From: Tremella fuciformis
Lineage: Eukaryota; Basidiomycota; Tremellomycetes; Tremellales; Tremellaceae
DNA: 64,000 nt
Direction: 5' to 3'
NCBI GenBank assembly: GCA_032768795.1
Contig: CP136491.1
Span: forward strand, 682,001-746,000
Under the pieces are notes generated by a model, which saw only the letters and a program-made list of their open reading frames with translations, made no database searches and was not told the DNA's origin. Each line of letters begins with the position of its first letter. The stretch's first letter is position 1. This document shows positions 42,334 to 47,386 of this stretch, one piece after another. Both the position numbers and the translations under genes were made by a program.

Positions 42334-43019
42334 ATGAGCCATCACATATCCGCCGCCTTCGAGCCCGACCACAAGATGTCTCACGAGTGGAAGGACAAGG
42401 AAGGCTCGGTCGTCGACGGCCACGTCACCTCCGACCCCAACACCGTCGCCCTCGCGGCGAACTACACGCCCAACACCCCAGAGGAGAAGGCCCTCATCTG
42501 GAAGATCGACAAACGCATCGTTGTGAGTCAACCCTCCTTTGGCCATCACGTGACGTGGCTGACCTCTTAGCCTTGCATCTGGGGTCTCTACACGCTCTCT
42601 TACCTTGACCGCGCCAACATCGGTAACGCCAAGACTGGGGGATTGCAGAAAGACTTCAACCTCACCTCGGACCAGTACTCGGTCGTCCTCCTCGTCTTCT
42701 TCATCAGCTATGTCATCTTCGAAATCCCGTCCAACCTGGCCCTTACCCGTCTCCGCCCTTCCCTCTATCTCTCAGTGCTTTGCATCATCTGGGGCGGTGT
42801 CTCCGCTTGCATGGCTGCCACCAACAACTGGTTCGTCGCCTCTTAGAGATCAGCGACCGACGCTCTGCTTACACCGTCAGGAAACAGCTTGCTGCCGTCC
42901 GTTTCTGTCTCGGTGTCGTCGAGGCCGGCTTCGCTCCTGGTGTCGCATTCTATCTCTCATCCTGGTACAAAAGATATGAGTTGGCGTCTCGATTCAGTCT
43001 TTATTACACGGCGACCGCT

Positions 43020-46000
43020 TTATACATGTTCTAGGCGTGGTGGGACGAAAACCCTGTGGGAAACCCTTCCACTTGTAATACTACTGACTACAAGAAACTA
43101 CGAGGACCATGCGGACCAAGTCCGATAGTCTGATCTCTCTCTCATCACAACTCCTTCAACCAAACCAAAGGCTGCTGCCCTGAACTTCACTAACGCGACA
43201 CTGACGCACTGGCGGAGAAAGCTGGCGCTTCCAATGGGCATCTGGCGGCAGATCTTCTCGAGCATAACGATCGTAGATTTCTCGAGATAGCCGCCGGCCG
43301 ACAGAACGAATGGCTGAAATGCAGTCGGGCCGATTCGATCCCTTGGGAGTTGAGCGATGGTCTTCTCTGCCAAGTTTGTCAAGCCTTGGTCCGCATATTT
43401 CTTGGCGCCGGACCAGAGGTCCTCATCACTGATTCGACGATTCGCAGCGAAATTATGTTGGGCCGAAGACAACGCTGTCACTTTGATATCAAACTCCATG
43501 GGCGCAAGGCGGGACTGCAACGGAGGAGTGAAGCGAATGTCGTTGATGCGGTGCCCGGCGCTAAGGTCGGAGTGCAGTATAGTGGGTTCGATCTCGACTT
43601 GCGAGCCAGCAATAGCACGCAGAGCGTGCCCCAGCGCCATCTTGATTGCAGTGTGGCGCTGGGAACGGATAGCCGCCACTTTGTTGCAAGACTCAGGGTG
43701 GAAGATCGTGACGTCGGTGACACCACAACCCCGACAGACGCTTGTTTGAGGTGGGACGAGCGTCCGAGATCGCAGGGCCGCAGCAACCTCAGCATCCGAC
43801 AGCCAAAGCCTGTAGGTGGAGGGTATGACGGACATCCAGCGACGTCCGACTACACTCGCATTCTCGAAAACAGCGACTCTTTCGGCTTGGTCCAGGAGCG
43901 ATAAGAGGCGTTTCTGGTGTTCCTCAAGCATCTCTTCACACCTTCGTCGCTGGGATATGATTGTTGTTGGTGGGACGACGAGATCGGTGATGGATGCGAG
44001 GACCAGGTCTGCTGATTGCGCGGATGCTGCAGCTGCGTGAGGGCAGGCGTCTTCAAAGGACAGAAGACCCAAACCCCCTTGTTTGATCGGTAGAGTGACT
44101 AGGGCGTGCTCTATGAACGGGTCGCCGGGACGAGGACCGGTCATGCGGAGGGTGGATACAGCCGCTTTGAACAGGTCATCCACTCTTCGCCAGGTGTCTC
44201 TGGTGACAGATGGGTCAAGGGTCCGGAGGAGGTGTCGCAACTTGGGCAAGACACACATCCGGAGCAGGAGAAGAGCGTGCTGCGACTTCATGAGCGGTAA
44301 GAGCGATAGAGACTGAACAAGGTCATCGACCTTGCGGTCGAGGAAGGAGCGGACACGGTCGGCATCACCCGCGATGGAGCCGAGGAGCTCGAAGCCGTTC
44401 GCTCTAATGTCCTCCAGCGTGGCGGAGCGACTCTTGTCGACGTTGAAGGAGAAAGGGGAGTCGCTCGCACGAAAGGACTCGATGGCGTCTTGGATTGTGT
44501 CCTGATCGGGGCCAAAGATAAAGATGTCGTCCAGGTAGGCGACGACTCTGTATCTGGGGCCCAGACGTCGAGCCAGCTCTTCAAGATGAGGCCTGAGAGC
44601 GATGGAGAAGAAAAGTGCGGCCAATGGATCACCCTGGCGGAAGCCGCACCGTGACCAGAGTACGGTCGTTTTCGTACCGTCTCTCGCTAGGAGGGGCGTG
44701 CGCTTGCCATAAGTGGACAGATAGACCCTGTAGAGCTCCGGGGCCTTCTGCAAGACAAGGTGAGCCGTAGGGAGACGATGTGGGGACCCAAAAGCGTTGA
44801 CAGCGTCCATGCCCGTGAGGCGTTGGACGTCTGTGCCGAGCTCGCCGCGGAGTGCTTTGTCGACCAGTCGAACTATGGGTTCGGCTCCACTGGCCGTGGA
44901 AACCCCAAGTTGACAAGGCGCGAGCATGTCGGGGCGGATAACCTTGTTGAGGCAGGTCCGCGTGACGAGCCGATAAAAGAGCTCACCGACGGCAACCGGT
45001 CTCACATTGGGCGCAGAAGGATCAATGGGTACACCAGGCGGGTCCTTGTTGAGAGGCGTGAGGCGCGCCACACAGAGGAGGTCCATGCCCGGGATCTCTG
45101 CATTAAGGAGCGAGTCACAAAGGAAACCCAGGAAGGATTGAAACCTGTCATCCCGAGCTGCCAGTCGTAGAAGATCGACTGTCCAGCCCGAGGGGCCTGG
45201 AGCGGTGTCCGTCTTGAATGATTTCATCACCACCTGGATGTCGTCAATGGAGGGAGGCTCGATCACAGGTGTGGTGGGAGGCGGTGCCTCCGTGAGGATG
45301 GTGTCTGGGCCTGGGAGGTTTTTCGCATCCAGAGCACGTACGACCTCAGGCGAGGGCTCGTGAACTACGGTCTTCGCCTCAAGTGCGCGCATCGCTGCAC
45401 CCAGGCGACCCTGCTCCACGAGTCGGGAGGCCGTTTGTACCGGAGTCCTTATGGCCCTGCTCGAGGTGTCGGGCAAGGTCCGTTCGACCAAAGGGAAAGC
45501 TGCAAGTCTTGCTTCCGCATTCTTCTCTCGTAGGCCAGGTATAAGGCCAACCTTGACCAGGGCGAGGATGTCAAGGAGGCCGTTGGAGGACGGCTCATTG
45601 ACATAGGCCTCCGTGACCCTGGCTGCGGCCTCGATGAAGGGTGCCGTCAGCCTCTTCGGGAGATGACTGTACCGTGGGGGCATGGCCTCCAGGTACGCTA
45701 GGGCCTCCATGTCATCTAGACCCTCGCGCCAGGAAACAGGCTGCGGAGTGTCGGATGAGGACTGGCCAGGGAGGTTGTCGTCGGGGCCCGGAAGGCCTGG
45801 TGGCGCACCAGACGAGGGGCGAGGAGTGTTCCGAGCCAACTGGGCCGACGGAGTACGACGTGACGGGGCTGGTGAGGCGTTCGAGGCAGTGGATCTTGCC
45901 TGAGAGGGTATCGGCGGGATTGGAATGACAGTGGGTCCTGTGGCGAGGACACCTTTCTGCGGGCACGTTTTCCGATGAGTGCCATGACCTCGGGGGCGGC

Positions 46001-46468
46001 ACAGAGCGCCACAGGAGCAGAGGAGGATCCCCATCTGTTCCGCTTGAGAGGGAGAGATTGTGGTACCCGCGTGGAACAGGCGGAAGTGAGCGTGGACTTG
46101 AACGCCCAACGGCGCACGACAGAGCACACACTTGATCTGCTGCTCGGCTTCCGATCCTGAGGGCGTCTCGGGTCGAGGAGGAGCTCCCCCACGAAGCCGG
46201 AGGACAGGAGGAGGGTGAGGAGGGTCGAGATCGGGGTCGGCGGTGAGGTACACGCTACTTGTGTCACTCTCGTCCCCGCTGTCGAGGCCTTCAGCGTAGT
46301 CATCACCACTTCGGTAATCTGTATCGCTGTCATTGTCACCCTCGAAACCGATGTCGCTGCAACTGCCGTCCTCAGTGTACCAGTCCGAGTCCGTGTCGCT
46401 CTCGGTGTCCCAGCTGTCTTCGCTAGGGGTGTGCGAGGGGCAGCCACCTCGAAGACGTAGAACGGGTC
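43020..46468 (-). mobile_element. Non-LTR retrotransposon with restriction-like endonuclease, 5'-truncated
   Basis: One long frame on the minus strand, open from the 5' junction (near 46468) to the stop at 43098. It starts in an acidic Ser/Asp/Glu-rich segment bracketed by two VLRLRGG heptapeptides (46463-46443 and 46205-46185). Two zinc fingers follow (IKCVLCRAPLG...HFRLFH and LLCSCGALCRPRGHGTHRKTC). The reverse transcriptase has GFRQGDPLAALFFSIAL and AYLDDIFIFG (YLDD at 44526-44537). The C-terminus has a CRGCGV...FHPESC knuckle near 43700-43740 and a PD-(D/E)xK-like block, HRINDIRF...MEFDIKV. This order is that of RLE-type (CRE/R2-like) elements. There is about 78 bp of 3' UTR, with no poly(A) and no clear target duplication. 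The missing 5' end and open first codons indicate 5' truncation on insertion. Confidence 0.88.
43098..46468 (-). CDS. Retrotransposon polyprotein: acidic region, zinc fingers, reverse transcriptase, endonuclease
   Basis: About 1,120 codons are open without a stop; no ATG is needed at the visible 5' end because the copy is truncated. Following the first VLRLRGG are 63 residues rich in Asp/Glu/Ser, then VYLTADPDLDPPHPPP and the second VLRLRGG, then APPRPETPSGSEAEQ and the zinc fingers. Counting from the GTG codon at 46253, YLDD is near residue 572 and the knuckle plus nuclease at about 835-925. All catalytic motifs appear intact, so only the 5' end makes this copy non-autonomous. The encoded enzyme would nick a target and reverse transcribe its RNA from the nick. 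Confidence 0.8.
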
Positions 46469-47386
46469 GTTAGTGGTGCGTTTAGCGGCCTCCTTGCTGG
46501 TTTGATCACCCAACACCTCGACGGCAAGCGCGGCATCGCCGGATGGCAGTGGCTCTTCATCATCGAAGGTGTCGGCTCGTCCTTCTTGGGCTGCTTCACC
46601 TGGTACTTCATGCCCGACTGGCCGTCCACCACCAAGTTCCTCAGCCCCGAGGAACGCCTACTCGCCGCCCAGCGCCTGGCGTACGACGGTCTCGCAAACA
46701 CGCAAGGTGCTCAGGGTCATCTTGGTCACTGGGAGGCTTGCAAGATGTGCTTCCGTGACTGGCGCACTTGGATTCTCGTCGTCATGTACATGCTCTGCAC
46801 CGGCGCCCAAACCATCCAGTACTTCGTCCCGACCCTCGTGGCGAATCTCGGTTGGAAGAGCTACAGCGCTCAGTACCACACCATTCCCCTCTACGCCTGC
46901 GCCTTTGTCTGTATCCTCGGCTTCGGCTTCGGTGCCGACTACACTCAGCGCAAACCTTACTTCATCGCGGCTGGCGGCATCATTGCCTGCATCTGCTTCA
47001 TCATCGTCGTCACCGTCCAACACCACATGGTGCAGTACGTTTTCATCATCTTCGCCTTCGGCTGCGTCTACGCCATCTGCCCCTTGACGCTCACCTGGGT
47101 TCCCAACATCATATCCTTCCCCGCCGAGAAGCGTGCTGTCTCCATCGCTCTCGTCAACGCCCTCGGCAACTCTGCCTCCATCTACGGTGTCTTCCTCTGG
47201 CCCTCGACCGATGCTCCCCGCTACGTTCCTGGCTTCAGCGCGACCACCGTGTGGCTCTTCCTCATTGCCGTCCTCGCTCTCGTCATGAACTTCCTCATTC
47301 AGAAGTACCCCCTGGAGGCGCCCGATGCCGAGGCTGTCGTCCAGCAGGAGATCGAGAAGCAGAGGCAGAGGGGCCTTGTCGTGTAA

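Follow-up and report, generated by a model that had tools for sequence, protein, structure and literature searches.

The window analysed here, a stretch of 64,000 nucleotides of Tremella fuciformis DNA (contig CP136491.1, positions 682,001 to 746,000), contains a 5′-truncated, R2-like retrotransposon inserted inside a host MFS gene. The features of the locus, in window coordinates, are the following:

43023..46471 (ends approximate), minus strand: 5′-truncated RLE-type non-LTR retrotransposon, delimited by the break in the MFS profile and recognised by its ORF and RT
43098..46469, minus strand: open frame of 1123 aa plus stop, in the order motif, acidic spacer, motif, CCHH finger, linker, RT, CCHC, RLE
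46443..46463, minus strand: first VLRLRGG, residues 3-9, followed by Cys
46206..46442, minus strand: 79-residue acidic spacer, predicted disordered (25 D/E, 1 K/R, pI 4.05)
46185..46205, minus strand: second VLRLRGG, residues 89-95, followed by Ala
45960..46130, minus strand: CCHH zinc finger and CxCG...H..C knuckle, where the confident predicted fold begins
44418..45008, minus strand: reverse transcriptase with YLDD present (Pfam RVT_1, residues 488-684, 30.5 bits for a cut-off of 29.6)
43470..43736, minus strand: CCHC knuckle and restriction-like endonuclease motifs (conserved residues; chain-wide fold match to R2 proteins)
42879..43022, plus strand: one flank, with part of the interrupted MFS gene (MFS_1 profile 86-132, sub-threshold at 22.1 bits for a cut-off of 33.4)
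46472..47386, plus strand: opposite flank, an open frame with the rest of the interrupted MFS gene (MFS_1 profile 133-346, 55.8 bits, match to about 47188)

In the plus-strand flanks the MFS_1 profile is broken between its positions 132 (at about 43022) and 133 (at about 46472). Because it resumes at about 46472, the DNA of the element must start at most about 10 bases from the first motif, and the 5′ truncation with its junction at the first copy, postulated in a preliminary description of this DNA, is borne out. A stop codon lies directly upstream of the frame (46469-43098, minus strand). Three traits of the RLE-type non-LTR group (R2/CRE) are present, namely a non-LTR RT, a C-terminal CCHC with an RLE, and an N-terminal zinc finger on ORF2. 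The solved proteins nearest to the window protein, by sequence and by fold, are R2 retrotransposon proteins, the best fold matches by E-value being 8gh6, 9nl3 and 9dou, with an alignment that spans most of the chain. Pfam gave no separate endonuclease match for the window protein, and the residues C912, C915, H924, C928, D977 and D994, invariant or nearly so in our alignment (A1), are those that we take to belong to the CCHC knuckle and the RLE motifs. Nor was there a Pfam zinc-finger match in this protein, in which the finger is seen by its spacing pattern and by alignment. The AlphaFold model of the window protein has a mean pLDDT of 80.2; residues 1-110, which include both copies of the motif, fall below 50, and a confident fold starts from about residue 112.

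The heptapeptide VLRLRGG is thus found twice in one frame, on either side of a markedly acidic stretch, just as the preliminary description had it. The two copies are written with different codons (GTT CTA CGT CTT CGA GGT GGC for the first, GTC CTC CGG CTT CGT GGG GGA for the second), which differ at six of the seven positions, every change being synonymous.

Relatives were collected by three protein searches, each of which scored about 8000 candidates, so that further clade members may exist; together with the window protein and L027, a same-genome relative, they make up a set of 110 proteins. Besides Tremella, the set includes proteins of Cryptococcus neoformans (P0043-P0045, presumably Cnl1), Kwoniella shandongensis and Aureobasidium melanogenum. 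Six distinct proteins other than that of the window carry the motif: P0001 (identical to P0004), P0003, P0005, P0006, P0029 and P0030. In these seven clade members (7/7) the sequence LR[LI]RGG, which corresponds to the last six residues of ubiquitin apart from one L-to-I change in L027, occurs in nine copies, followed by A (six copies), C (two) or S (one). All nine share the first Leu and the two glycines. P0003 resembles the window element in having two copies around an acidic spacer, here of 55 residues (17 D/E, 1 K/R).

LR.RGG is the sole 5-of-6 pattern common to all seven linkers, which were cut by hand for this test, P0004 being left out as a duplicate. When the linkers were shuffled 2000 times, the best pattern was common to one linker in 281 cases, to two in 1717 and to three in 2, and never to more than three of the seven. 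Neither LR.[RK]GG nor L.L[RK]GG was found in the 102 outside proteins, which together have 106,506 residues; many of these proteins are without the N-terminal region, and 25 show the finger pattern. A looser pattern matched eight outside proteins (P0056, P0057, P0058, P0079, P0088, P0090, P0092 and P0097), none of them as LR.RGG.

For the tree, 59 of the 110 proteins were chosen by hand and two ORF2 frames of this genome were added; four of these 61 rows had no RT anchor and were dropped, leaving 57. The seven motif members lie on one side of a single branch (support 100/96, recovered in 100% of 200 bootstrap trees), and their RT domains differ by up to about two changes per column. Retention of the motif in every clade member agrees with the selection on the peptide that had been suggested from the codons. 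The motif and the extension that accompanies it most simply arose once and were then kept; since all carriers belong to one clade, they count as one evolutionary event and not as repeated proof.

L027, which is P0001, is a single frame of 1526 aa, 44% identical to residues 94-1122 of the window protein, and P0004 is the L027 protein from its Met onward. It reads PVLRIRGGS ahead of the CCHH finger, one amino-acid change (L to I) away from the second copy of the window. The sequence LFRLRRG, also in L027, was considered as a decayed second motif and set aside, as its score was reached by 2077 of 5000 shuffles. At L027:490-1461 lies a separate ORF1, basic at its end and unmatched in Pfam, which stops 12 nt before the ATG of a 1522-residue ORF2; a comparable upstream frame in L029 overlaps ORF2. 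As L027 has an ORF1 of its own, ending just ahead of the ORF2 ATG, a fusion of ORF1 with ORF2 was dropped as the origin of the seam, and the zinc-finger part upstream of the motif is an extension of ORF2. A degraded copy, L031, is 72% identical in DNA over 976 bases and is uninformative on the motif, since the aligned part is all downstream of the motif region. L028, L029, L030 and L032 represent a second RLE-type lineage in this genome, without the motif and with frames broken in places. A search of viral contigs found nothing.

What distinguishes the place of the motif is best seen from the finger that precedes the RT. This finger pattern is present in 32 proteins (P0004 left out), eight of which have at least 120 residues ahead of it; six of these eight carry the motif, and the two that do not, P0025 and P0060, are both distant. 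Among the 24 proteins with fewer than 120 residues ahead of the finger, the motif occurs in the truncated window protein only. We inspected 21 of the 25 starts of outside-clade proteins with a finger: all begin with Met, as predicted in the source, and the first finger Cys falls at residue 3 to 37 in 19 of the 21, the exceptions being P0047 (96) and P0069 (72). In the clade, the counterpart of the window's second VLRLRGG is, by alignment, the only motif of each other member or the last one. From the end of the motif to the finger there are 5 residues in P0006, P0029 and P0030, 18 in the window protein, 29 in P0003 and P0005, and 48 in P0001. With a gap that ranges between 5 and 48 residues, contact with the finger is no requirement for the motif, and a cut after GG would yield a protein starting near the starts of the outside-clade relatives. 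Alignment and predicted fold are both consistent with the earlier suggestion that the motif is suitably placed for releasing a zinc finger-RT-nuclease protein.

Upstream of the motif, four or five C2H2-type spacings can be recognised by eye in P0001, P0003, P0006, P0029 and P0030, and the N-terminal alignment has Cys and His columns that never vary and that fit, again by eye, the spacing of C2H2 zinc fingers. Pfam C2H2 matches above the cut-off occur there in P0006 only. P0005 has 138 residues before the motif and no finger match in them. The distant relative P0025 has a long extension with neither the motif nor a 2A sequence. The 2A motif D.E.NPGP is absent from the clade and, among the 110 proteins, was seen in P0060 alone, a distant relative extended at its N-terminus, where it lies at residue 95.

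How might this arrangement work? We propose, with little more than even confidence, that LR[LI]RGG is a putative cleavage site, cut after GG, which parts the zinc-finger extension from the RT-nuclease. In one R2/CRE-type clade, ORF2 would have been lengthened at its N-terminus by a part with four or five C2H2-type fingers, and a linker with LR[LI]RGG and then a small residue (A, C or S) would form the seam between this extension and the ancestral ORF2 protein. An enzyme that recognises the ubiquitin tail, either a host deubiquitinase or one from another mobile element, may then cut after GG. Such a cut would free a zinc-finger protein and a CCHH-RT-nuclease protein that starts near the start of the outside-clade relatives; in the elements with two copies, the acidic spacer would come free as well, as a peptide of 79 residues (window) or 55 (P0003). 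The cleavage, its enzyme and its benefit are what we infer, and the sequence features expected of a cleavage site are seen, as all nine copies have A, C or S next and the window copies lie in predicted disorder. A narrower form of the proposal, in which a bare ubiquitin tail without the fold serves cellular deubiquitinases as a processing site, giving a zinc-finger targeting protein and an RT-nuclease, plus an acidic peptide in some elements, is possible, and we hold it only tentatively. If true, retrotransposition would necessarily pass through the ubiquitin system of the host. Deubiquitinases contact ubiquitin chiefly through its folded body, and most of them cut short RLRGG peptides poorly; as no ubiquitin-like sequence lies upstream, this counts against cleavage at the motif.

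Candidate enzymes are encoded by the host genome, with 29 match rows for USP (counted exon by exon) and four for UCH. One USP frame, at L072 (G000:C4:1809300-1812700), has matches of equal score and span at C1:8169208 and C8:1534792, and the frame adjoining it gives a weak SWIM match below the cut-off (E 0.0044). L072 is possibly a Mutator-like element with a deubiquitinase, perhaps with a Ulp1-like end, the latter seen by eye only. P0083 and P0091, two distant RT proteins, have a USP domain (PF00443) in the same chain, partial in P0091. By analogy, these USP domains, the 2A sequence of P0060 and the ubiquitin hydrolases of other transposons may be taken as supporting analogues of cleavage at the motif.

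Two other origins of the motif can be judged from the sequences at hand. The first is a chance likeness to ubiquitin in a GC-rich frame rich in arginine and glycine. It is true that the codon pattern for [LF]R[LF]RGG with CGN arginines is common at random, with 29 matches in the 28-Mb genome for 25 in a reversed control, so that a single isolated match would mean nothing. By position, eight of the 29 are in ubiquitin genes and two are the window's own; of the remaining 19, 14 were inspected by eye and look like unrelated or antisense frames, among them a cluster on C7 and one on C8, and the other five start with a Phe codon. However, the same motif stands at the same place in all seven clade members, none of the 2000 shuffles comes close, and none of the 102 outside proteins has it. 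Two same-frame copies, together with the same motif at the same place in six diverged relatives, are beyond chance, and we regard the probability of a fortuitous likeness as negligible. Alternatively, a whole ubiquitin domain could have been captured and then eroded until its tail was left. The last six to seven residues are indeed those of the host's own ubiquitin, and the preliminary description had suggested that full-length elements could start with a ubiquitin moiety. Instead, the five longer members (P0001, P0003, P0006, P0029 and P0030) have C2H2-type spacings upstream of the motif and nothing ubiquitin-like by Pfam (E up to 1), blastp or hhalign. With residues 1-70 of this genome's ubiquitin, blastp gave a best E of 0.86 over 8 residues in P0001 and nothing in the other four, and hhalign of this ubiquitin against the upstream parts gave a probability of 0.0. 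Judged by such comparisons, no beta-grasp ubiquitin fold ending in LRLRGG was found upstream, and an upstream ubiquitin domain was rejected. Furthermore, two copies would need two captures, or a duplication followed by erosion, and an eroded ubiquitin thus appears very improbable. The preliminary description had also named what would speak against its own interpretation, longer copies that lack upstream ubiquitin and have not conserved the heptapeptide: the former proved to be the case, whereas the heptapeptide was kept. As a whole, this interpretation is partly supported.

The main rival to cleavage is an arginine-rich arm placed before the finger, which would bind nucleic acid or serve nuclear import and would never be cut, its likeness to ubiquitin being a convergence. 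Five outside proteins that form one group in the tree (P0011, P0042, P0047, P0049 and P0051) read R.RS[AG].G.C at the corresponding position close to their start, from which the motif could be a modified arginine arm, and in P0006, P0029 and P0030 the motif ends just ahead of the finger. Such an arm, however, has no obvious need for an invariant first Leu and two invariant glycines (9/9). Also against it, the motif is kept at 18 to 48 residues from the finger in the window protein, P0001, P0003 and P0005, and two elements have an additional copy 55 or 79 residues upstream. We therefore consider it rather unlikely, if still a serious competitor. Less probable still is a docking role, in which the motif stays uncut and is bound by deubiquitinases or other proteins that read the ubiquitin tail, for instance to spare the RT protein from degradation. 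A ubiquitin tail in a linker predicted to be disordered in the window protein would suit this role, the USP domains of two distant relatives suggest that the pathway matters to such elements, and portions of PMC2836005 discuss how ubiquitin hydrolases are linked with transposons. Docking nevertheless leaves unexplained both the position near the ancestral ORF2 start and the small residue after GG. Moreover, some readers of the ubiquitin tail require a free GG end, which also weighs against an uncut peptide. Cleavage at the seam is the reading that we retain. Against it, Pfam at E up to 1 revealed no protease domain in any of the seven clade members (the window protein being truncated), whose matches are to RT and zinc-finger types, plus weak ones below the cut-off and of no clear meaning.

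The ubiquitin-tail motif at the seam of this R2/CRE-type ORF2 is real and conserved, and cleavage there is the function we infer for it. Reinitiation and 2A are the main known ways in which one non-LTR message gives separate proteins; a ubiquitin tail conserved at the seam would be a route that depends on a protease, tying the element to host deubiquitinases. Should short tails be cut in the absence of the ubiquitin fold, expectations of deubiquitinase specificity would change as well. We found no earlier report of LR[LI]RGG in a retrotransposon in the open-licence literature searched, which is weak evidence of novelty.

Excerpts of PMC12810828 and PMC12857005 place Cnl1 of C. neoformans near MoTeR in the R2/CRE group. 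Like Cnl1, MoTeR and FoTeR, the window element has an N-terminal zinc finger, an RT, a CCHC and a restriction-like endonuclease. Unlike them, its clade has an additional array of C2H2-type fingers at the N-terminus and the LR[LI]RGG seam. The copy in the window is inserted in an MFS gene, and neither the window nor L027, L028, L029 or L031 showed a tandem TTAGG-type repeat. In non-LTR retrotransposons such as L1Tc, a short 2A motif parts an N-terminal portion from the remaining product (PMC4981915, in part). Both 2A-carrying elements and the present clade thus have a short motif at an N-terminal boundary, but 2A acts on the ribosome, whereas LR[LI]RGG would need a protease.

Another parallel comes from coronaviruses, whose polyprotein sites (LXGG) are cut by a papain-like protease. 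According to sections of PMC11670956, LRGG is the cleavage sequence of this protease, which also cuts ubiquitin and ISG15. The viral LXGG is likewise a ubiquitin-tail-like site in a polyprotein, but the virus encodes the protease, whereas no protease domain was found in the clade. Parts of PMC2836005 describe transposons, among them Ginger1 and Mutator, that carry an OTU, Ulp1 or peptidase C19 domain. These elements too are tied to the ubiquitin pathway, but from the other side: they encode the enzyme, whereas the present clade encodes a substrate-like motif.
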